A DNA stretch of 64,000 nucleotides, taken from contig CADAUZ010000029.1 in assembly GCA_902791215.1 (NCBI GenBank), forward strand, positions 1 to 64,000. Reading direction: 5' to 3'. Within the stretch, counting starts at the first letter, position 1. Every line of letters starts with the position of its first letter. The notes under the pieces were generated by a model. The model did not search any database. It saw only the letters and a list, made by a program, of their open reading frames with translations, and was not told the origin of the DNA. A program made the translations under genes and the position numbers. The stretch comes from Oscillospiraceae bacterium. Its GTDB lineage: Bacteria; Bacillota; Clostridia; Oscillospirales; Oscillospiraceae. Positions 17,138 to 63,915 of this stretch are shown here, piece by piece.

Positions 17138-17270
17138 GTCATTGCGAGCCAGTGCGCACACTGGCGTGGCAATCCGCCCGCCGGAGGCCATTAACAACTC
17201 AGAAATCAAACGTGGCCGCAGGGAGTACGGATTGCCACACCAGTGACAGCGGTCACTGGTTCGCAATGAC
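17138..17270. repeat. R1 palindromic repeat, copy 1 (between gmk and rpoZ)
   Basis: The left arm begins GTCATTGCGAGCCAGTG and the right arm ends ACTGGTTCGCAATGAC; the arms also share CGTGGCAATCCG/CGGATTGCCACACC. The copies at 33731 and 63808 have the same arms with unrelated centres. The flanks 17100-17125 and 17292-17325 (each with ATCGGCTT and TTAATGTAT) look like a further, imperfect inverted repeat, so the inserted unit may be about 225 bp. The rest of 17061-17328 shows no gene. Confidence 0.75.
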
Positions 17271-32784: not shown

Positions 32785-32814
32785 TTTTCCATAAAACACT
32801 GTGTTTATGGAAAA
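32785..32814 (+). terminator. Hairpin after hydA
   Basis: A perfect 11-bp stem, TTTTCCATAAA with TTTATGGAAAA, seven bases after the hydA stop. There is no U-run, so termination is uncertain. Confidence 0.4.
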
Positions 32815-32820
32815 GGCACA

Positions 32821-33066
32821 AAAGGGCGCGTTGCAAAATAATAATTTTTCGTGAAAACAAAGCATTATGAGCGTAGGGGAGGGGCTTGCCCCTCCCGCCC
32901 ATGGCAAGCTTGAACTGTAAAAAATGTACGGCAATTTCGTAGAATACTACGATTTCGCCGTACATTTTCTTTTTATAGTCATGCTGTACCGCCGGGAGGG
33001 GCAAGTCCCTCCCCTACGGTATTCACGGACAATTACGCGAAAAGTGAATTATGCAACGCGCCCTTC
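32821..33066. mobile_element. R2 MITE-like element, copy 1
   Basis: A 246-bp non-coding element. Its ends are inverted repeats: AAAGGGCGCGTTGCAAAAT at the left and its near-complement ending CAACGCGCCCTT at the right. Inside are two nested palindromes: an outer one of GTAGGGGAGGGGCTTGCCCC type (and its complement), and a central AATGTACGGC...GCCGTACATT stem. A second copy of almost identical length lies at 42396-42640. No open reading frame, so mobility would need a transposase in trans. It fills the hydA-cyclophilin gap. Confidence 0.75.
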
Positions 33067-33730: not shown

Positions 33731-33858
33731 GTCATTCCGAGCCAGTGTCGCAACACTGGCGTGGGAATCCGTCTCTCTTATGCGGGTAATACTTTTTTCC
33801 TTTGCGAAAAAGAAGCGGATTGCCACACCAGTGACATCGGTCACTGGTTCGCAATGAC
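33731..33858. repeat. R1 palindromic repeat, copy 2
   Basis: Same arms as the copy at 17138: left GTCATTCCGAGCCAGTG with GGCGTGGGAATCCG, right GCGGATTGCCACACCAGTGA to GGTTCGCAATGAC, with a different central 45 bp. It lies just upstream of the cyclophilin gene. Apart from this and the hairpin at 33955, the interval 33699-33999 holds nothing recognised. Confidence 0.75.
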
Positions 33859-33999: not shown

Positions 34000-34206
34000 T
34001 CAGAACTTGATCTTGAGGGTCTGACCGGGCATCAGAGCGGAATTGCTCGGGAGATTGTTCCACTTTGCCACCTGGTCAGCGGTGACATGATACTGTGCCG
34101 CGACGCTCTCCAGCGTGTCGCCCGGGTTTACCTGGTACGGGAGAATGGTGCCGCCGCCGACTGCGTCCAGTACTTCGTCGTTCAGAGCTTTCTTATTCAT
34201 CGTCAT
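34000..34206 (-). CDS. Double-glycine leader LysM peptide 1
   Basis: A 68-residue protein, start at ATG 34206 eight bases after GGAGG (the TTG upstream would place that ribosome binding site inside the gene). Residues 1-17, MTMNKKALNDEVLDAVGG, look like a class II bacteriocin/pheromone leader: L-(S/N)-D-E-x-L-x-x-V-x-GG. The rest (GTILPYQVNPGDTLESVAAQ through PGQTLKIKF) is one complete LysM domain. Predicted: cleavage after the GG by a C39-peptidase ABC exporter and release of a free peptidoglycan-binding module. No such exporter is in the window. It has its own promoter with 11-bp-spaced repeats. Two paralogues lie at 39422 and 42650. Confidence 0.75.
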   Translation of the reverse strand: MTMNKKALNDEVLDAVGGGTILPYQVNPGDTLESVAAQYHVTADQVAKWNNLPSNSALMPGQTLKIKF

Positions 34207-34265
34207 TTTCTTATCCTCCAATTCAAAGATTCCTGTTTGTGTGTTTTCTTCCTGCCTGCGTGTGT

Positions 34266-34300
34266 ATCATAGCACACGAACTGTCACACTACTGTCACAC
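34266..34300 (-). promoter_or_regulatory. Promoter of LysM peptide 1 with 11-bp-spaced direct repeats
   Basis: Minus strand: -10 TATGAT (34271-34266); then, 10 bp upstream, GTGTGACA (34289-34282) and a second GTGTGACA (34300-34293), exactly 11 bp apart. The repeats cover the -35 region, where no good -35 box exists, as expected for an activator-dependent promoter. Confidence 0.7.
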
Positions 34301-34308
34301 GCTTCTCC

Positions 34309-36339
34309 TCAGGGAGTCCAGCCGCAGAACGGGCAGGCGTCATATCCGGGAGAGAAGTGGTTGCCGCAGTTCGGGCACTCCACACGGTTGTGTTCATCCC
34401 CGATCGGATCATAGTCCGCGTACACATAGGGATTGATGTAATCGCTGTCATCAACGTCATAATACTGGTTATCATAGTAGTTGGAGCCGGCATAACCGCC
34501 CATCGTGTCATAGTAGTGGGAGCCGGCCCAGCCGCCCTGGTCGGGGATGGGGTCTGAGCTGCCGTAGATGGCAACGGAGGTGACGTTATCGGAGCTCGGG
34601 TAGTTCATATAGGTGACGGTGCAGGGAGCGCCGTCATAGAAGGTGCCGGATACGTTGCACTTCCAGCCGTCAACATAGATCTGCGTGCCGTTGGAGAGGT
34701 TGATGGCGTATCCGCCGCCGCCCTCATAGGCATAGCCGCTCATATCGCCGTAGACCGGGCCGACCTGCTCGCTGCCGTAGATATCGACGCTGTAGACGCT
34801 GGCATTGCTGATCGAGCCGCTGTAATAGGCCACGCAGGAGGCGCCGTCATAGAAGTTGCCGTAGACATTGCACTTCCAGCCGTCAACGTACAGGGAGACA
34901 CCGTTGGCGAGATTGATGGTGAAGCCGCCGCCGGATTCATAGGCCGTGCCGCTCATGGAGCCGTACTGCGGCGTGGGCGAAGGCTTGTTGCCGGAGATGT
35001 AGCAGTAGGTCACCTCAGAGCCGTTCCAGTTAAAGGAGGCGTAGGCGCCGACATAGAGGTCGCCGTCGATGTCGCACTTGCCGAAGGGGATGGAGATGGA
35101 CACGGTGTTCTCCGCCCAGATGGTCACGCTGCTGTAGTTCCAGTCGGTGACGGTGCCGGTGTAGGTGCCGCTGGGAGCGGGCTTGCTCTTGGCGGTGACA
35201 TACATGTAGGCGGTGGTGGTGCGGGCGGTCTGTCCCTGGTAGTAGAAGGTGCAGTAGGCGCCCCAGTTGTTCATGCTGGTGCTGACGTTGTCGATGGCGA
35301 GGGTGGTGCTGTATTCACCGCTGACGCTTGCGCCGAAGATGTTGCGGAAGTTCTGCACGGAGTACTCGCCGCCGTCGGGGCCGACAAACGTCCAGGTCAG
35401 GGACTCATAGGCGTTGGCACAGGAGACAAAGTAGGCGGTGCCGCCCTCGGTCTTGTTCTCGTTGGTGGGGTTCTTGGTGATAGACAGGTAGATCGGCTGC
35501 ACGGGCGCGGGCGTAGGTGCAGGCGTGGGCGCCGCGGGCGCGGGGGTGGCGGTCGGAGCCGTCAGGGCCTCGGGCTTGGGAACCGGGAAGACCTCGGTCG
35601 GGTTCTTTCTGCCGGAGAAGACCGCGTAGCTGTCGATCACGCGGGTGAGATTATTCACATCCGAAGCGGTCAGCCACTCAAAGTTGGTGCTGCTGCGCTC
35701 GGCATTGGCAAAGGCGTTGTTGCCGGCGGCGTTGTACTGCTCGGGAGAGATCCTGGCGCCGTTTTCGTCAGTGTGGCTGACGTTTCTCACGCCGTTTACG
35801 ATCTGGGTATGCTCAACGGCGTAGGCCTGGTAGCTGATGACGCCGTCCTTGAGGTTATAGGCGCTCTTGCTGGTGTAGACATCGGTGGGAGAGAGCACCA
35901 CGTTGTCATAGAACAGGTAGTTCCAGGTATCGGTGGCAGTGTCGTGGTAGGTGTCGGCAACGTCGGTGAGGATGTCCGGGAAGGATTCCTCCGCGTCCTT
36001 GTCGAGCTTGCACTCCACAAGAGCCTTTCTGTCGTTGCTGACCTCCCAGACCTTCAGGTTGGTGGAGCGGTCCTGCGGGTGCTGGGACGCGGAAACAAAC
36101 TCCAGGTTGCCGTCATGGTCAAGGTCGGTGATGGTGTAGTACCAGGGATTTACGCTGTCGTTCTGCTTGAGGGTCCCGATCTGGGAATAGATGTACGCGA
36201 GCTGGTTGTCGATGTCTGTGGGCTCGAGCGTGACGGGCTTGAGCTCTTCGGCCCAGGCGCTCACGCCGCCGCATACCGCCGCCGAGACCAGCATGGTCAT
36301 AGCCAGCAGGCAGGCGAAAATGCGCTTCGTTGTTGTCAT
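34309..36339 (-). CDS. Large secreted protein, Pro-rich linker, beta repeats, C-terminal zinc ribbon
   Basis: Start at ATG 36339 (MTTTKRIFACLLAMTMLVSA), with AAGGAGAAGG before it; signal peptide about 30 residues. The 676-residue product then has a globular domain (to about 250) rich in polar residues, a linker of PTATPAPAAPTPAPTPAP type, an Ig-like domain (YLSITKNPTNENKTEGGTAY), and three related repeats with YVDGWKCNVYGNFYDGA and similar (residues about 400-600). The tail is Tyr/Asp-rich and ends in a treble-clef zinc ribbon CPNCG...CPFCGW, a module usual in cytosolic proteins. No family recognised. It lies between LysM peptide gene 1 and the response-regulator operon, so it may belong to the same surface system. 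Confidence 0.65.
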   Translation of the reverse strand: MTTTKRIFACLLAMTMLVSAAVCGGVSAWAEELKPVTLEPTDIDNQLAYIYSQIGTLKQNDSVNPWYYTITDLDHDGNLEFVSASQHPQDRSTNLKVWEVSNDRKALVECKLDKDAEESFPDILTDVADTYHDTATDTWNYLFYDNVVLSPTDVYTSKSAYNLKDGVISYQAYAVEHTQIVNGVRNVSHTDENGARISPEQYNAAGNNAFANAERSSTNFEWLTASDVNNLTRVIDSYAVFSGRKNPTEVFPVPKPEALTAPTATPAPAAPTPAPTPAPVQPIYLSITKNPTNENKTEGGTAYFVSCANAYESLTWTFVGPDGGEYSVQNFRNIFGASVSGEYSTTLAIDNVSTSMNNWGAYCTFYYQGQTARTTTAYMYVTAKSKPAPSGTYTGTVTDWNYSSVTIWAENTVSISIPFGKCDIDGDLYVGAYASFNWNGSEVTYCYISGNKPSPTPQYGSMSGTAYESGGGFTINLANGVSLYVDGWKCNVYGNFYDGASCVAYYSGSISNASVYSVDIYGSEQVGPVYGDMSGYAYEGGGGYAINLSNGTQIYVDGWKCNVSGTFYDGAPCTVTYMNYPSSDNVTSVAIYGSSDPIPDQGGWAGSHYYDTMGGYAGSNYYDNQYYDVDDSDYINPYVYADYDPIGDEHNRVECPNCGNHFSPGYDACPFCGWTP

Positions 36340-36418
36340 GTTCCTTCTCCTTTTCATATCGGCAGCATCGCACAATACGCCTGCGGCATCTTCCGGAAAA
36401 TTTGTGCCCTGATTTCGT

Positions 36419-36460
36419 CACTTTTTCTTGAGGTACACAAAGTACATCTGCGAAAAAGTG
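36419..36460 (-). other. Leader hairpin of the secreted protein mRNA
   Basis: CACTTTTTC pairs with GAAAAAGTG (9 bp) with an inner GTAC/GTAC pairing, between the promoter at 36559 and the start codon at 36339. It lacks a U-run and may stabilise or regulate the message. Confidence 0.4.
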
Positions 36461-36558
36461 CCATCATAGCGCCCCGCGCTGTGTGCGCAGCTCCCGTTTT
36501 TCTCCCCTTTTCCGTGAACCGGGGGCTGTACGCGAGCCGCTGCCTTTGCAGCGAGGTC

Positions 36559-36587
36559 ATTATATCACAGCTCTGCAGGAAAATGAA
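36559..36587 (-). promoter_or_regulatory. Promoter upstream of the large secreted protein
   Basis: Minus strand: -35 TTCATT (36587-36582), 17-bp spacer, -10 TATAAT (36564-36559). The leader to ATG 36339 is about 210 nt. The interval 36340-36605 contains only this promoter and the leader structures. Confidence 0.6.
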
Positions 36588-36605
36588 CACAATTATGTGA
36601 ACTTT

Positions 36606-37418
36606 TTACTGATCGTCATCAAACGACCAGGCGATCTCGTCGAGCTCGGCGTGCATGACCTCGGGCCAGCTGTACTGGTTCATGTAATCGCCCAGATAGT
36701 GGTACTTGGACTCCTGCTTCTTCTCGAGCCAGTCGTAGAGATCACATTTGATGCGGTCGGTGGCGATGGCGAGACTGCCGCGCTGCTTGAGGATGATGCC
36801 GTTGAGCTTGAGCTTTGTGAAGGTGTTCTGCAGGTCCTGGCGCAGATTGGACAGATAGGAGGCCTTCTTCTCCGGGTCGCCGTCGTCCTCCCACAGGCAG
36901 GCGATGATCTCGCCGTTGCTGGTCTGGGCGCCGCGGTTGTTGATCAGCACCGCCACCAGCTCCTTGGTGCGGTTATACTTGAAGGCCACGGGCTTGCCGT
37001 CGACAAAGAGCTCAAAGTTGCCGAAGGTCTGGGCGAAGACGCGCTTGTGCTCCTTCATGACCGCCGGGTGGCGCAGCTCGTCCAGCTCCCGCGTAAGCTC
37101 CGGCTCTGCCACCGGCTTCGGCAGGATGCCGCTTGCGTGCTGCCGCAGAGCTGTGTAGCCCGCCTCTTTGTCCGTGGAGAGGTAGATGAGGTTTACGTCC
37201 GGGTACAGCTCCTGGAGATACTGGCCGAAGTCCAGGCCGCTGAGCTCGGGCAGCTCCGTGTCGATGACGGCGATGTCCGCCTCCTGCTTTCTGGCGTCGG
37301 CAAGAGCGGTCAGTCCGCTGTCGAAAAGACGCAGCTCCGCGTCGGGCCGGAGCGCGGTGAGCATTTCGCGCAGGCTCTCCCGCTCGTCCTCCGCGGCATG
37401 TACGACAAGAATGTTCAT
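36606..37418 (-). CDS. Response regulator with SARP-like winged-helix output domain
   Basis: A 270-residue receiver-plus-DNA-binding protein. The receiver (1-118) has the phosphoacceptor at D53 (VIDTELPELSGLDFG) and the lysine K101 (LPKP), but the acidic pair near the N-terminus reads AEDER. Residues about 130-205 (FGNFELFVDGKPVAFKYNRT, then KELVAVLINNRG and YLSNLRQDLQNTF) match the OmpR-like winged helix of SARP/BTAD regulators, followed by a short helical tail. SARP proteins bind direct repeats spaced 11 bp just upstream of a -10 box, precisely the arrangement at the three LysM-peptide promoters. Its start overlaps the upstream unknown gene by four bases. No histidine kinase is nearby. Confidence 0.8.
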   Translation of the reverse strand: MNILVVHAAEDERESLREMLTALRPDAELRLFDSGLTALADARKQEADIAVIDTELPELSGLDFGQYLQELYPDVNLIYLSTDKEAGYTALRQHASGILPKPVAEPELTRELDELRHPAVMKEHKRVFAQTFGNFELFVDGKPVAFKYNRTKELVAVLINNRGAQTSNGEIIACLWEDDGDPEKKASYLSNLRQDLQNTFTKLKLNGIILKQRGSLAIATDRIKCDLYDWLEKKQESKYHYLGDYMNQYSWPEVMHAELDEIAWSFDDDQ

Positions 37419-37921
37419 GCGTCCTCCTCCCTTGCCCGCTCGGGGATCTTCACCACGCGCAGCTTCTGGTTCTTCCGCTCCTCCCGGCTCATGGTCAGGG
37501 GGTTGAGCGCGCCGACCAGCAGCATCTCACCGCCGTAGACCGCCGCGTCATGCAGGGGGCCGACGCTCAGATCCGCGATCACCAGGGCCGCAAAGCGGTC
37601 GTAGTTATCCTCGTCGATCACGGGGAAATGGTGCTGCATGCGATACCAGTGCTTCGGATCGAAGGAGGGCTGGCCCACGTACAGGCGGTCCGCAGTGGCC
37701 TCCACATCCTCGGGCGAGGCCTTCTGTCCCGCCACCGCGCCGATATCGTCACAGAAAAGCATGGCATAGGCGCGCAGGATCTGATTGCGCACGGTGTCCT
37801 TTCTGCCGTCCCGCTCCACCTCCGCGTCCATCACGCGGTAATAGAAATCCTGTGAAGCCTCGCTTTTTTCAAAGCTGCACACCGCCTCGTAAAACGCCTT
37901 GTTGATCCATGCATGTGCCAT
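37415..37921 (-). CDS. Conserved-looking protein of unknown function
   Basis: A 168-residue soluble protein starting MAHAWINKAFYEAVCSFEKS. It contains tryptophan/histidine-rich stretches (DPKHWYRMQHHFPVIDEDNY) and a hydrophobic segment near AALVIADLSVGPLHDAAVYG, but no known motif. It lies 37 bases after the YdcF-like gene and overlaps the response-regulator gene by four bases, which implies coupled expression and perhaps a direct partnership with the regulator (inference). Confidence 0.6.
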   Translation of the reverse strand: MAHAWINKAFYEAVCSFEKSEASQDFYYRVMDAEVERDGRKDTVRNQILRAYAMLFCDDIGAVAGQKASPEDVEATADRLYVGQPSFDPKHWYRMQHHFPVIDEDNYDRFAALVIADLSVGPLHDAAVYGGEMLLVGALNPLTMSREERKNQKLRVVKIPERAREEDA

Positions 37922-37958
37922 GATTGCCTGCACCCTTCCTTTTATGATTACATTATAA

Positions 37959-39425
37959 TTACATTACCAGTGTTGTGATACTCGCGGTGATCAGAACGAT
38001 CACCCCCATTGCGGCCAGCTGCTGGACGCGCTGCGCCGCCATCAGGCCGATAAATTCGCGCAGAAACGCGTTCGGCCAGAAATACCATTTGGTACGGCTT
38101 CCCATACCGTCAAGGTCCCAGCCCACCTCCGAGGCGAGGATGCCGCTTCGGTAGACATGATAGTTGGAGCTGGAAAACGCCGCGTTTCCGACGCTCCCCT
38201 TCTCTTCGATGAGCCTGCGGGAAAAGAGGAGGTTTTCCCGCGTGGTCGTGGATTTCGTCTCCGGCAGGATGTACTCCTCCGGTACGCCCTTCTCCCGCAT
38301 GTAACGGGCCATGGCCTCGCCCTCGGACAGGGGCTCGTCGCCGCCCTTGCCGCCGCTCGGTACCAGGACGGCCCGCTTGCCGGTGGCCTTGAACTGGGCA
38401 TTGACAAAATTGATGGCCCGGTCCACCCTGCCCCGGATGAGCGGATAGAGCGTCCCGTCGGGCCGGATGCGGCAGCCGAGGACCAGCACATAATCCTTGT
38501 CGTAGGCAGGTTCGTGCCGCCCCGCCATCACGGAGCGGATGATCGTGGCGGCGAGCAGGCACTCAAAGTACACGAAAAGTCCCGCGTACACATTGAGCAG
38601 CACATTCCTGAGTGGGAACTGCAGCATAGACCTTGACATCCAGATGCCGAGGGCCGCGCCCCCCACCATCACGAGTGACACCGCGAGCCCCAGCATATTG
38701 GCGGGCCGCACCCCTTCATGGCGCATGAGGACGAAATTGCTCGCCGCCGTCACAAGGGCAAAGCCCACGATCACGAAGGCGGTGCGGCGCACGAAGGTCT
38801 GGGCCGTGACGATGGTGCTCACCAGAAAGGACCACACCGTCCCCACGTTTTCGCCGCGCAGGAAGCCGCAGAGCATGTCTACACGCACGAGGCTTGCCAC
38901 CAGCAGGAAGATCGCAATGCCGAGCTCGGCAGTGGCGCGGTAGGAGAAGAAGACGCGCTTTCTCTCCCGCCTCGATTCCAGGAAAAAGATCACGGCGGCT
39001 GTCAGCAGAAACAGGAAAAAGCAGGCCGTAAAGAGCTCCCAGCCGCTGAAGTTCCAGGTGATGTCGTCAAAGAGGATGCCGCCGGGATAGGAGCGGATAT
39101 GGCTTTCGATGTCGCTGTCGTACAGGCTCTGCTCGCCGAGTCCGTCCCAGTGGAGCAGCGCGTCCGTCTCCCCGTGCCCCACAGGCACGAGCCGTACGGC
39201 AAGCTCCGTCCCGTCGGCGGAGGTCTTCATCTGTGAGGCCTTCGCGATCCCCTCCGGCGAGAAGGTCAGCGCGTAGCCGTCCGCGTCCGGCGGGACCTCG
39301 AAGAAGAGCGTCAGTCCCCCGCCGCCGATGCGCAGGCACAGGAAGAACACAAGCAGCCACGCGATGCCCGCCGCCAGAAGCTTCAATAAAATGACCGGGC
39401 CGCGCTTTTCGGAAGCTCTCTTCAT
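37959..39425 (-). CDS. YdcF/SanA-family (DUF218) polytopic membrane protein
   Basis: A 488-residue protein: one N-terminal transmembrane segment, an extracytoplasmic loop of about 100 residues, then further membrane segments (roughly 130-300) and a C-terminal DUF218 domain (YVLVLGCRIRPDGTLYPLIR, VPSGGKGGDEPLSEGEAMARY, TTTRENLLFS, and SSNYHVYR). DUF218 proteins such as ElyC and SanA affect envelope and peptidoglycan precursor metabolism in E. coli. Its ATG overlaps the stop of LysM peptide gene 2 by four bases, so the two are translationally coupled. Confidence 0.8.
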   Translation of the reverse strand: MKRASEKRGPVILLKLLAAGIAWLLVFFLCLRIGGGGLTLFFEVPPDADGYALTFSPEGIAKASQMKTSADGTELAVRLVPVGHGETDALLHWDGLGEQSLYDSDIESHIRSYPGGILFDDITWNFSGWELFTACFFLFLLTAAVIFFLESRRERKRVFFSYRATAELGIAIFLLVASLVRVDMLCGFLRGENVGTVWSFLVSTIVTAQTFVRRTAFVIVGFALVTAASNFVLMRHEGVRPANMLGLAVSLVMVGGAALGIWMSRSMLQFPLRNVLLNVYAGLFVYFECLLAATIIRSVMAGRHEPAYDKDYVLVLGCRIRPDGTLYPLIRGRVDRAINFVNAQFKATGKRAVLVPSGGKGGDEPLSEGEAMARYMREKGVPEEYILPETKSTTTRENLLFSRRLIEEKGSVGNAAFSSSNYHVYRSGILASEVGWDLDGMGSRTKWYFWPNAFLREFIGLMAAQRVQQLAAMGVIVLITASITTLVM

Positions 39426-39658
39426 CGCTGGGGGATCATGATCGTTCTGCCGGGCCGGAGCTGATCGGGGTCATCGGTGAGATTGTTCAGCTCCCGCAGC
39501 ACGCGCACCGTCGTGCCGAAGCGGTGGGCCAGCACCGAAAGCTTGTCGCCGGGCTGGAGGGTGTACATGAATACCGCCCCGTTGTACGCCCCGCCGGAGA
39601 CCTGTTCCATCATGTCGTCCCCGAGCGCCTTAAGCCGGATGTTTTTCGTTCCGTTCAT
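39422..39658 (-). CDS. Double-glycine leader LysM peptide 2
   Basis: A 78-residue protein; start ATG 39658 follows GAGAGGTG. The leader MNGTKNIRLKALGDDMMEQV ends in SGG (residues 21-23), and the mature part AYNGAVFMYTLQPGDKLSVL to PGRTIMIPQR is a single LysM domain. It has the same leader-plus-LysM design as the genes at 34000 and 42650, but heads a probable operon: ydcF-like gene (four-base overlap), unknown protein, SARP-like response regulator. The LysM cores of the three are clearly diverged, so this is not a recent duplication. Confidence 0.72.
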   Translation of the reverse strand: MNGTKNIRLKALGDDMMEQVSGGAYNGAVFMYTLQPGDKLSVLAHRFGTTVRVLRELNNLTDDPDQLRPGRTIMIPQR

Positions 39659-39691
39659 AGTTTTCACCTCTCTCAGATCCATGATACGCCC

Positions 39692-39726
39692 AGTTTATCA
39701 CACAGACTGTCACAGATCCGTCACAC
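39692..39726 (-). promoter_or_regulatory. Promoter of LysM peptide 2 operon with 11-bp-spaced repeats
   Basis: Minus strand: -10-like TAAACT (39697-39692), 10-bp gap, CTGTGACA (39715-39708), and GTGTGACG (39726-39719), 11 bp apart. Geometry is identical to the other two LysM-peptide promoters. Confidence 0.65.
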
Positions 39727-39806
39727 GTTTTTTCCGCAGAACATTATACTTGCTTTATCCCGATTTTACAAGCCATGGATTCACCCCGACGCGCTCGTTT
39801 CCGTCC

Positions 39807-39834
39807 TTGACAGTGTGGGAAAGCATGTTATAAT
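39807..39834 (+). promoter_or_regulatory. Sigma-A promoter of the gtrA-like operon
   Basis: -35 TTGACA (39807-39812), 16-bp spacer, -10 TATAAT (39829-39834): consensus in both boxes. It is divergent from the LysM peptide 2 promoter. Confidence 0.8.
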
Positions 39835-39843
39835 AATCACATT

Positions 39844-39876
39844 GCCGCGTACCGCTGTGAGCGGGTGCGGCTTTTT
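39844..39876 (+). terminator. Promoter-proximal terminator/attenuator hairpin
   Basis: GCCGCGTACCGCT pairs imperfectly with AGCGGGTGCGGC and is followed by TTTTT. It starts only about three bases after the predicted transcription start and lies 27 bases ahead of the gtrA-like ATG. No plus-strand gene upstream needs a terminator here. Confidence 0.6.
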
Positions 39877-39902
39877 ACTATCGGTATAAATGAGGATGGC
39901 GC

Positions 39903-40433
39903 ATGTCACTGCTCAAAAAGCTGGACGCCCGCTTCGGTGACGCGGCGCTCTGGCAGTTTATCAAATTCAACCTTGTCTCCACCGGCATCACACTTTTACA
40001 GCTTGCGCTCGCCAATCTCCTGCCGCTCGTGTTCGACGGCGTGACCGCGAAGCTGCCGCCGCTGCTGCGTCCGGTGTTCCGGCCCGAGGCCCTGTTTGAG
40101 GGGCCGAGCCGCTATGTGGTGGACGGGGTGGTCACCTGGGGCTATGTGCTCCCCTTCTTTCTCTCCAACTTCATCGCCAATCTCTGCGGCTACTATATGA
40201 ATATGAAGACCACCTTCCGCGGCAGGGGCAGCCGGGCGGGACTGATTGCTTATCTCGTGATCATCGCCCTGCTGATCCTGTTTTCCACCTGGCTGCAGGG
40301 GTTCATCACGGCAAAGCTCTCCGTGACCGCCCTCGCGCCGCTGGCAAGGACCATCGCCGCCATGGCTGCGGGGTATGCGCAGCTGGCGGTGCTGTTCCCG
40401 CTGGAAAAATTCGTACTGTTCAAAAAGGACTGA
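39903..40433 (+). CDS. GtrA-like membrane protein
   Basis: A 176-residue protein with about four transmembrane segments and the GtrA-type start (WQFIKFNLVSTGITLLQLAL) and end (FPLEKFVLFKKD). A non-helical insert (about 45-80) lies between helices 1 and 2. GtrA-like proteins are thought to flip lipid-linked sugars, which fits the glycosyltransferase gene starting five bases after its stop. Confidence 0.75.
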   Translation: MSLLKKLDARFGDAALWQFIKFNLVSTGITLLQLALANLLPLVFDGVTAKLPPLLRPVFRPEALFEGPSRYVVDGVVTWGYVLPFFLSNFIANLCGYYMNMKTTFRGRGSRAGLIAYLVIIALLILFSTWLQGFITAKLSVTALAPLARTIAAMAAGYAQLAVLFPLEKFVLFKKD

Positions 40434-40437
40434 TCGC

Positions 40438-41748
40438 ATGGAAAAAGTCAGCGTCATCGTACCCGTGTATAACGGGGAGCAGCGCGTGGAGCGCTGCGCG
40501 GAGAGCATGCTCAGTCAGGACTACCCGGAGCTGGAGCTGATCCTGGTGGACGACGGGAGCCGGGACAGCTCCTTCGAGCTCATGCGGAAAATCGCCGCGG
40601 GCGACAGCCGTGTGAAGCTCGTCCACAAGGAAAACGGCGGCGTCTCCTCCGCCCGCAACCGCGGACTCGACGAGGCGAGCGGCACCTATATCCAGTTTGC
40701 GGATGTGGACGACTGGCTGCCCATGGACGCGACCAAGCTCCTGGTGCGGGAGATGGAAGCAAGCGGCGCCCAGCTCGTCGTCGGCGACTTCTACCGCGTC
40801 GTGGAGGGGAACGTGTCCCGAAAGGGCGCCATCGAAAAGGGAGGCATTCTCTCCCTGCGCGCCTACGCAGACCAGATGATGCTGGGCCCGGCCGACCTGT
40901 ATTTCGGCGTACTCTGGAACAAGCTCTACCGGCGGGAGATCATCGAGCTGCACGGCATCCGCATGGACGAGAGCATCAGCTACAGCGAGGACATGATCTT
41001 CAACCTCGAATACCTCCTGCACGTCCAGGCGATCGCCGTCTTGAAGGCCCCGGTCTATTATTATCAATATACGAAGGGCTCCCTGGTGGATCAGAGTCTC
41101 AATCTGAACGCCACCGTGAAGATGAAGAAAAGCGTCATCGGCTATTACAACGACTTTTTCAGGAGCACCTTTGAAACGCCGGACTACAAGGAACGCCTGC
41201 CGGTGATCTACAGCTATCTCCTGGCCGTGAGCCGTGACAGTCTGGCGCTGTCCTTCATGCCGGGCACGAAGAAGCTGAGCGAGGGCGGCGGCCTGTCCGC
41301 CCTGTCCGAGGGGCTCAAAGAGGGCTCTCCCCTGCGCAGCGCGATTTTGCTCGACAGACTGCTGACGCGCTATATGGAGAGCATCGGCCGCAGGCACAGT
41401 CTGGACGGGACCGCGGTCAGGCTTCTCTACTGCATGGACAAGCTGGGCGTGCCCTGCACGACGGAGACGCTGTGCACGCTGACCGGTCTCGGCAAAACCG
41501 CGGCGCTTGTCGCCCTGGCCCGCCTGATGGCCGAGGGGCTTGTGCGGCGGGAACCCGTCTCCGGGCAGCCCGACCTCTTTGTCTTCCAGGCCCCGGAGCT
41601 GCGGGAAGAGCTGCGGCAGCTCGACCGGGATATGGACGCGGTCTGCTTTGACGGCTTCAGCGAGGAGGAGCTTAAGCAGTATCTCGAATTTCAGCGGCGC
41701 ATCGACGGGAGCATACTCCGCCGCCTGCGCGCGGAATCGGCCCGGTGA
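40438..41748 (+). CDS. GT2 glycosyltransferase fused to MarR-like winged helix
   Basis: A 436-residue protein starting MEKVSVIVPVYNGEQRVERC. Residues 1-230 form a GT-A family 2 domain with VDDGSRDSS, KENGGVSSARNRGLD and the metal-binding FADVDDW. The C-terminal 110 residues (from about 328) look like a MarR-type winged helix: TLTGLGKTAALVALARLMAE as the helix-turn-helix, a VRREPVSGQPDLFVF wing, and the family-typical terminal helix DGFSEEELKQYLEFQRRI. I know no common GT2-MarR fusion. The gene sits between the GtrA-like gene (five-base gap) and a HAD phosphatase, whose upstream frame touches its stop. Confidence 0.75.
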   Translation: MEKVSVIVPVYNGEQRVERCAESMLSQDYPELELILVDDGSRDSSFELMRKIAAGDSRVKLVHKENGGVSSARNRGLDEASGTYIQFADVDDWLPMDATKLLVREMEASGAQLVVGDFYRVVEGNVSRKGAIEKGGILSLRAYADQMMLGPADLYFGVLWNKLYRREIIELHGIRMDESISYSEDMIFNLEYLLHVQAIAVLKAPVYYYQYTKGSLVDQSLNLNATVKMKKSVIGYYNDFFRSTFETPDYKERLPVIYSYLLAVSRDSLALSFMPGTKKLSEGGGLSALSEGLKEGSPLRSAILLDRLLTRYMESIGRRHSLDGTAVRLLYCMDKLGVPCTTETLCTLTGLGKTAALVALARLMAEGLVRREPVSGQPDLFVFQAPELREELRQLDRDMDAVCFDGFSEEELKQYLEFQRRIDGSILRRLRAESAR

Positions 41749-41762
41749 CGGAGGGAAACGGC

Positions 41763-42389
41763 ATGGAGAGTCTTTCCTTTCTCTGGGATATGGACGGGAC
41801 GCTTGTGGACTCCTACCCCGCCATTGTCCCGAACGTCATCGACGCCTGCGCGGAATACGGGTACTCCATCGACGCCGACACGGTGTACCGGAATGTGATC
41901 AAAACCTCCGTGGGGAGCTTCCTGGAAAGCCTCGACACGCCGCACACGGCGTCCGTCAAGGCGCGCTTTCAGGAGCTCAACGACACGCGCATCGAAAAGA
42001 TCCGCCCCATGTCCCGCGCGCTTGAGACGCTTTCGCGCCTCCGGGAGGCGGGGCACCGGCATTTTGTGTACACCCACCGCGGCGCGTCCTGCCGGGCGAT
42101 CCTGGAAAATTGCGGCCTGCTGCCGTATTTCACCGAGATCGTGACCGCCCTGGACGGCTATCCGAGAAAGCCCGCGCCCGACGCGATTTTTTACCTGATG
42201 AAAAAATACGCGCTCGCCCCGGCGCAATGCTACTATGTGGGCGACCGCAGCCTCGACATGGAGGCCTCCCGAAACGCTTCCATCGGCGGCATCCTGCTTC
42301 TGGTCCCGGGCAGTCCCACAGAGCCCACGGGATATGAGAGCCATGTGGTGCGTGACCTTGCGGAGCTCGGCGGATTGTTCGGCGCATAA
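41763..42389 (+). CDS. HAD-superfamily hydrolase
   Basis: A 208-residue phosphatase-like protein (MESLSFLWDMDGTLVDSYPA). HAD motifs are complete: DMDGTLVDS (nucleophile Asp), VYTHRG (Thr), RKPAPDAIFYL (Lys) and YVGDRSLDMEA (acid pair), with a helical cap as in phosphoglycolate phosphatases. I use ATG 41763, preceded by GGAGGG, rather than the GTG at 41745. It closes the three-gene operon with GtrA and GT2; the substrate could be a sugar phosphate (inference). Confidence 0.85.
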   Translation: MESLSFLWDMDGTLVDSYPAIVPNVIDACAEYGYSIDADTVYRNVIKTSVGSFLESLDTPHTASVKARFQELNDTRIEKIRPMSRALETLSRLREAGHRHFVYTHRGASCRAILENCGLLPYFTEIVTALDGYPRKPAPDAIFYLMKKYALAPAQCYYVGDRSLDMEASRNASIGGILLLVPGSPTEPTGYESHVVRDLAELGGLFGA

Positions 42390-42395
42390 GCGCAA

Positions 42396-42640
42396 AAAGG
42401 GTGCATTGCAAAATACCGGTTTTTCGCAAAATCACAGCACCATGAGCGTAGGGGAGGGGCTTGCCCCTCCCGCGCACGATAAGCTTGAACTATGAAAAAT
42501 GTACGGCGATTTCGTAAAATGCTACGATTTCGCCGTACATTGTTTCTAATGGTTGTGTTGTACTGCCGGGAGGGGCAAGCCCCTCCCCTACAGTATTCAC
42601 GGGAATTATGCTAAAAGTGATTTTTGCAGCGAGTCCCTTT
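42396..42640. mobile_element. R2 MITE-like element, copy 2
   Basis: A 245-bp element with the same ends (AAAGGGTGCATTGCAAAATA and its near-complement at the right) and the same two nested palindromes as the copy at 32821. Spacer positions between palindromes differ. It lies immediately after the HAD gene stop and next to the stop of LysM peptide gene 3; its internal stems may end both transcripts. Confidence 0.75.
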
Positions 42641-42649
42641 GCTTTTGAC

Positions 42650-42874
42650 TCAGCGGATGCGGATGACGGCACCGGCGCTGATGACGTCGGGGTTCTTGAT
42701 GCTGGGGTTGAGGGCCAGGATCTGGCTCATGGGGACCTGCGCGCGCAGGGCGATCTCAGAGAGGGTATCCCGGGGAGCGATGCGGTAGTAGATCGCAGCG
42801 CCGTCCTGCCAGAAGTTGCCGTTTGCGCCGCCGCCGGAAACGTTTGCCATGGTCTGATCGTTGATAGGATTCAT
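42650..42874 (-). CDS. Double-glycine leader LysM peptide 3
   Basis: A 74-residue protein with ATG 42874 eight bases after AAGGAG. The leader is very short, MNPINDQTMANVSGG (residues 1-15), matching the LxDxxMxxVSGG pattern of double-glycine leaders. The mature part GANGNFWQDGAAIYYRIAPR continues into a LysM domain ending SAGAVIRIR. It is a stand-alone gene with its own repeat-containing promoter. Export and cleavage by a C39-peptidase transporter are predicted, but no transporter is seen here. Confidence 0.72.
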   Translation of the reverse strand: MNPINDQTMANVSGGGANGNFWQDGAAIYYRIAPRDTLSEIALRAQVPMSQILALNPSIKNPDVISAGAVIRIR

Positions 42875-63807: not shown

Positions 63808-63915
63808 GTCATTGCGAGACAGTGCGCACACTGTCGTGGCAATCCGTTCTCTTTTACCCGGCCGCCGGGAATACGGATTGCCACACCAACGCTGCGGCGC
63901 TGGTTCGCAATGACC
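63808..63915. repeat. R1 palindromic repeat, copy 3
   Basis: The arms GTCATTGCGAGACAGTG...GTCGTGGCAATCCG and ACGGATTGCCACACC...GGTTCGCAATGAC match the copies at 17138 and 33731; the centre is again unrelated. The rest of 63615-64000 holds a GTGCGGCTCT...GAACCGCGCAC hairpin (about 63689-63710) and no gene I can support. Confidence 0.75.

Follow-up and report, generated by a model that had tools for sequence, protein, structure and literature searches.

Several described systems resemble, in part, the one reported here. In Faecalibacterium duncaniae the most abundant envelope protein is MAM, which carries a double-glycine (GG) leader and is encoded beside a peptidase-containing ABC exporter (PCAT) (PMC12184118); in some strains the exporter gene lies in another chromosomal region (PMC12184118; PMC8836110). 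PCAT1 of Clostridium thermocellum acts on CtA, a cargo of 66 residues described as flexible, and the published consensus of C39-peptidase substrates is L(-12)xxxE(-8)L(-7)xxxxGG (PMC6959990). NHLM/NHLP systems are recognized by TIGR03794, TIGR03796 and TIGR03797 (Haft 2010, PMC2887384), and class II bacteriocins with GG leaders by PF10439, TIGR01847 and TIGR03949. Here we analyzed a stretch of 64,000 nucleotides (the window) from an Oscillospiraceae bacterium (assembly GCA_902791215.1, contig CADAUZ010000029.1, positions 1 to 64,000), in which three genes, A, B and C, each encode a GG leader joined to a single LysM domain (mini-LysMs). These proteins are predicted, with good support and high confidence, to be exported and trimmed by an NHLM exporter. 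In silico, export is strongly supported by co-occurrence of the genes with the exporter, by synteny, by the leader consensus and by the same leader being shared with other wall-module cargo. The three genes are as follows.

34000..34206, minus strand: mini-LysM A, 68 aa; leader MTMNKKALNDEVLDAVGGG, mature part TILPYQVNPGDTLESVAAQYHVTADQVAKWNNLPSNSALMPGQTLKIKF; LysM E-value 6.3e-15
39422..39658, minus strand: mini-LysM B, 78 aa; leader ending in LGDDMMEQVSGG, mature part AYNGAVFMYTLQPGDKLSVLAHRFGTTVRVLRELNNLTDDPDQLRPGRTIMIPQR; LysM E-value 1.8e-9
42650..42874, minus strand: mini-LysM C, 74 aa; leader MNPINDQTMANVSGG, mature part GANGNFWQDGAAIYYRIAPRDTLSEIALRAQVPMSQILALNPSIKNPDVISAGAVIRIR; LysM E-value 8.5e-11

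A first-pass annotation, made from the letters alone, had placed three such genes at these coordinates without stating the strand. The open reading frames (ORFs) were confirmed there, all on the minus strand; plus-strand translations of the same coordinates are meaningless. The proposed composition, a GG leader and one LysM domain per protein, was borne out by Pfam matches to PF01476 (55.3, 37.8 and 42.1 bits for A, B and C, gathering cut-off 20.9) and by the leader pattern, hydrophobic(-12) x4 L/M(-7) x2 V(-4) x GG, which is present in all three genes, as is a Shine-Dalgarno-like site. A scan of the window for this pattern behind a Shine-Dalgarno site and ATG returned four ORFs, namely A, B, C and one apparent internal start of a longer gene, and shuffled windows gave a mean of 0.1. 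In an AlphaFold2 model of A, which is of moderate confidence (mean predicted local distance difference test (pLDDT) score 63, LysM part 61-74), a leader helix (10-15) is followed by a break at the glycines and then by the beta-alpha-alpha-beta LysM fold. The best PDB matches to this model were LysM domains, several of them solved with oligomers of N-acetylglucosamine (GlcNAc). A phage origin of A was considered and rejected: in tblastn against phages, the matches were confined to the LysM regions of endolysins and similar proteins, with identities below 60%.

The leader register was the same throughout the family. In 59 distinct mini-LysMs, including A, B and C, position -12 was L, I, M or V and position -7 was L, M, V or A without exception, -4 was V in 55, and -2/-1 was GG in all. 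Since selection of these sequences required GG and restricted -4 but left -12 and -7 unconstrained, agreement at the latter two positions is independent. All 59 leaders agree with the published C39 consensus at -12, -7 and -1/-2. They are acidic (median isoelectric point (pI) 4.05), and as no hydrophobic stretch is present (median of the best 12-residue hydropathy, 0), they are not Sec signals. The first-pass annotation had named homologs lacking GG, or carrying ordinary signal peptides, as evidence that would speak against its proposal; every short LysM gene read from the genus had the GG leader, with no failures, and none had a hydrophobic signal. The mature parts have a median length of 59 residues and a median pI of 9.5, and the LysM class spans 49-74 residues. 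GG is a common dipeptide and small LysM-only proteins exist, and the genes could in principle encode cytosolic proteins in which GG occurs by chance. However, the exact register in 59 proteins, the exporter linkage and co-occurrence described below, and the identical leader type on unrelated folds all argue against this reading; the register and the shuffled-window scan led us to reject it, and we assign it almost no probability.

The genome contains exactly one C39 peptidase exporter, on contig C6. It is of the NHLM/NHLP type, with 936 bits to TIGR03796 (cut-off 853) and 717 bits to TIGR03797 for its partner (cut-off 709), and the catalytic residues Cys28, His102 and Asp118 of the C39 domain are conserved in this genome and in two relatives. 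Although both ABC subunits thus score as in described NHLM/NHLP systems, the cluster differs from these in the HlyD-like protein ahead of the exporter, which is truncated to a stub (TIGR03794, 28 bits, below the cut-off of 156; N-terminal 91 of 421 positions only), and in showing no modification enzyme. Enzymes modifying ribosomally synthesized peptides were not recognized among recurrent neighbors (50 loci) or among the Pfam-annotated genes of locus L121, and mini-LysM precursors had no match to nitrile-hydratase or Nif11-like leader models. With PCAT1-CtA the system shares the leader consensus, the C39 catalytic residues and a cargo of dozens of residues; the mini-LysM cargo, unlike CtA, is a recognizable folded domain. 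A LysM search of the genome revealed seven mini-LysM genes: besides those in the window, contigs C15, C7, C40 and C4 each carry one. The remaining LysM proteins are ordinary and longer. C and the copies on contigs C4, C7 and C40 form one subfamily of four paralogs.

In this genome, spoVAD-spoVAE lie directly upstream of the exporter genes (L013:7132-8513), and mam of Faecalibacterium is likewise found near a sporulation cluster (PMC8836110). Both observations would fit a sporulation-linked wall or cortex function, in the manner of LysM proteins such as SafA or SpoVID modules. However, spoVA adjacency was not recurrent among the clustered exporter loci, and the SafA model scores far under its cut-off, so that a sporulation function appears very improbable.

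Co-occurrence was assessed at several taxonomic levels. Across 101 genomes sampled from the family, three had leader-bearing mini-LysMs: our genome, G004 of the same genus and G084. Each of these had a full C39 exporter, which occurs in only about a tenth of the sampled genomes. Within the genus (101 genomes), mini-LysMs were detected in 58 genomes, with up to about ten copies each, and the NHLM exporter in 66; 56 of the 58 mini-LysM genomes had the exporter (Fisher p = 2e-15, in a test that assumes independent genomes, which related genomes are not). Gene presence in the genus was scored by profile-match E-value, with residue-by-residue checks for the retrieved loci only. CW_7 repeats also track the exporter in the genus (52/55). 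A C39-type exporter, for which the first-pass annotation had advised a search, was thus found in the source genome and in nearly all mini-LysM genomes of the genus, and it is physically linked to mini-LysMs in relatives. Among 345 genomes of the order and 378 of the phylum, no clear leader-bearing mini-LysM was found beyond our genome. Occurrence outside the genus was limited to G084 and possibly L195 and L143, and a wide distribution was therefore rejected.

Synteny in relatives was derived from a C39-domain scan of named genomes, which yielded 80 exporter loci, mostly from metagenome-assembled genomes (MAGs) of the rumen or ruminant gut, whose neighbors were clustered. The conserved order begins with a D-Ala-D-Ala dipeptidase-like M15 gene (linked to the exporter cluster in 8 loci), response regulator, STAS protein, HlyD stub, ABC1 and ABC2, and continues with LysM-B, DUF218, unknown protein, response regulator, LysM, secreted repeat protein and LysM-A. 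Positions 39658-34000 of the window correspond to the block from LysM-B to LysM-A minus the middle LysM, with the exporter located elsewhere. Of 34 exporter loci with at least 72% C39 identity, 14 had a mini-LysM within the retrieved flank, although contig ends truncate many of the 34 loci's flanks. Between A and B the window contains the following genes.

34309..36375, minus strand: secreted repeat protein, 688 aa; an apparent Sec signal peptide, zinc-ribbon-like Cys motifs at the C terminus and no match in Pfam
36606..37418, minus strand: response regulator consisting of a REC domain and an additional C-terminal region; kept in the exporter cluster of relatives
37415..37933, minus strand: 172-aa protein of unknown function; conserved in the cluster (13 loci)
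37959..39425, minus strand: DUF218 membrane protein (PF02698, 83 bits)

The start of the DUF218 gene overlaps the stop of B by 4 nt (ATGA), and 11 of 23 DUF218 orthologs have a mini-LysM (LysM-B) immediately upstream, with a 4-nt overlap in seven of the 11 and a spacing of -1 to +1 nt in the other four. Similarly, a mini-LysM is directly next on the same strand in 17 of 21 orthologs of the secreted repeat protein. The gene for the latter contains a repeat of about 124 bp (79%; 34621-34743 and 34834-34956), and comparable internal repeats are visible in its L121 ortholog. In addition, a direct repeat of 255 bp (83% identical; 32813-33065 and 42388-42639) lies near both ends of the LysM block; it resembles a miniature inverted-repeat transposable element or a repetitive extragenic palindrome, with an internal inverted repeat at 42448-42591. 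Short dispersed repeats of 43-57 bp, at most 98% identical, were found at 17228-17270, 33816-33858 and 63860-63914.

Mini-LysMs are not the only GG cargo near such exporters. GG ORFs occur at 10.6 per 100 kb near exporters versus 0.95 in control loci, an approximately eleven-fold difference. In the genus and its neighbors, the cargo includes LysM, paired CW_7 repeats (Pfam 94-109 bits) and a beta-sandwich family; in other Clostridia, SH3_3 (one above the cut-off, others below), PepSY and zinc-ribbon-like proteins were found. The source genome itself encodes two GG CW_7 proteins (contigs C4 and C7), one GG protein with a sub-threshold SH3_3 match, and GG zinc-ribbon-like mini-proteins that adjoin two mini-LysM genes (L015:4918-5118, L016:5250-5444); this list, compiled from domain searches and neighborhoods, is incomplete. 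The interpretation in the first-pass annotation is supported but understated the scale, since wall-binding cargo comes in at least three types (LysM, CW_7 and SH3b). The sharing of an export leader by unrelated folds, combined with the usual wall-binding role of LysM, CW_7 and SH3b, is the strongest hint to function.

The beta-sandwich family (A5, about 140 aa; L121:209-631, L127:1166-2075, L124:4041-4964, L118:8106-8543) gave a confident model (pLDDT 85) without a significant PDB match, and for this reason no function was assigned to it. Small conserved GG peptides (GGTSLYE...VGDYS) also occur near exporters (L134:5549-5782, L135:14438-14671, L125:14418-14666); they are not wall-binding domains and are possibly genuine peptide products. 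A GG leader is also found on a stand-alone PepSY domain (52 bits) at L173:7616-7879, near an NHLM exporter.

Genes linked to the exporter cluster include those for REC-domain regulators, a STAS protein and a histidine kinase, and the small size of the mini-LysMs resembles that of peptide pheromones. Free LysM modules might accordingly serve as wall sensors or secreted signals: their release would scale with wall turnover, and the linked response regulators and histidine kinases would detect them. We regard this as quite unlikely, because the cargo comprises several folded domains of unrelated folds (49-74 residues for the LysM class), unlike short pheromones, and because there are many paralogs per genome and no receptor partner was identified.

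We propose instead that the single NHLM-type exporter on contig C6 accepts A, B and C as substrates. Its C39 domain would bind the amphipathic leader and cut behind GG, and the exporter would then move a single LysM module of 49-59 residues across the membrane. Outside, the basic module would fold and bind GlcNAc-MurNAc (N-acetylmuramic acid) strands in the wall of the producer itself. Along with the exported CW_7 and SH3b modules, and under the linked regulators, it may decorate the wall or shield it, for example against lysozymes, phage endolysins or the cell's own autolysins. Cleavage, export, own-wall binding and purpose are all inferred in this model, which, taken as a whole, we consider reasonably probable. 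A structural or protective role in the envelope is favored over an antimicrobial one, and probably directed at the own wall, because the neighbors look envelope-related or regulatory and include no recognized gene for immunity or modification, because the subfamilies show conservation and because MAM provides a precedent.

The mini-LysMs could also be unmodified class II-like bacteriocins, in which LysM (or CW_7 or SH3b) docks on the walls of rivals and disturbs wall synthesis or the membrane. They share the leader type and, by prediction, the export route with these bacteriocins; a GG leader with an NHLM exporter is annotated as bacteriocin export, there are many paralogs per genome, and the mature peptides are basic. 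However, no candidate immunity gene was found among the conserved neighbors of the precursors (DUF218, regulators, secreted protein), and the core is one conserved LysM fold without a hydrophobic or pore-forming segment. Within mini-LysM subfamilies, median ratios of nonsynonymous to synonymous differences (pN/pS) were 0.46-0.67, a rough guide as synonymous differences are near saturation; these values below 1, like the presence of the genes in much of the genus, suggest conservation and not an arms race. Bacteriocin models gave sub-threshold scores only (TIGR01847, 12.4-14.5 versus 15.7 bits; PF10439, 12.3 versus 27.1 bits in a relative). Overall, an antimicrobial function of this kind seems unlikely.

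Several observations weigh against the proposed export and own-wall model. In the source genome, cargo and exporter are on separate contigs, and a direct search of G484 and G518, both incomplete MAGs that carry a mini-LysM, detected no C39 domain. In other Clostridia, exporters of this type have zinc-ribbon, PepSY or unknown cargo, so that wall binding is no universal denominator. In addition, a single LysM domain may bind peptidoglycan weakly, and the present data fit own-wall and foreign-wall binding equally.

The LysM fold is shared with autolysins, NlpC/P60 enzymes and YneA; these proteins also contain catalytic or membrane segments and use different export signals, whereas mini-LysMs consist of the module alone. 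MAM is the closest precedent in that it is a GG-leader protein of a gut clostridium, with predicted C39 cleavage and export, that is not a bacteriocin and is located in the envelope. It differs in being reported as helical, without a known domain and essentially restricted to Faecalibacterium, and in its MMMPAN leader (the motif MMMPAN...VxGG was absent from all mini-LysM sequences compared); the cargo described here consists of modules already known to bind walls, with as many as about ten in a genome. In the open-licence literature, the part searched, we found no description of LysM or CW_7 combined with a GG leader, PCAT or NHLP, and LysM goes unmentioned in a bacteriocin survey of the Hungate1000 rumen collection from 2026. 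No NCBIfam model covers the whole mini-LysM protein. The first-pass suggestion of an undescribed family hence survives. C39/PCAT export of a non-bacteriocin envelope protein is a known mode; the mini-LysM cargo class appears to be new.

It is routine to annotate C39 exporters as exporting bacteriocins, and genome mining would score the loci described here as bacteriocin clusters. Should these exporters mainly carry wall-binding modules, some of the bacteriocin potential predicted for Clostridia of the rumen and gut would be envelope biology. The mini-LysMs provide a short list of natural wall-binding domains of 50-60 residues together with an exporter for them, and they offer a testable function for NHLM exporters without modification enzymes. 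More tentatively, and at somewhat less than even chances in our estimate, NHLM-type exporters in Clostridia may represent a general secretion route for tiny stand-alone wall-binding domains (LysM, CW_7 and SH3b, but also PepSY and zinc ribbons), which would form a regulated protein coat on the wall, independent of Sec, sortase and S-layers.

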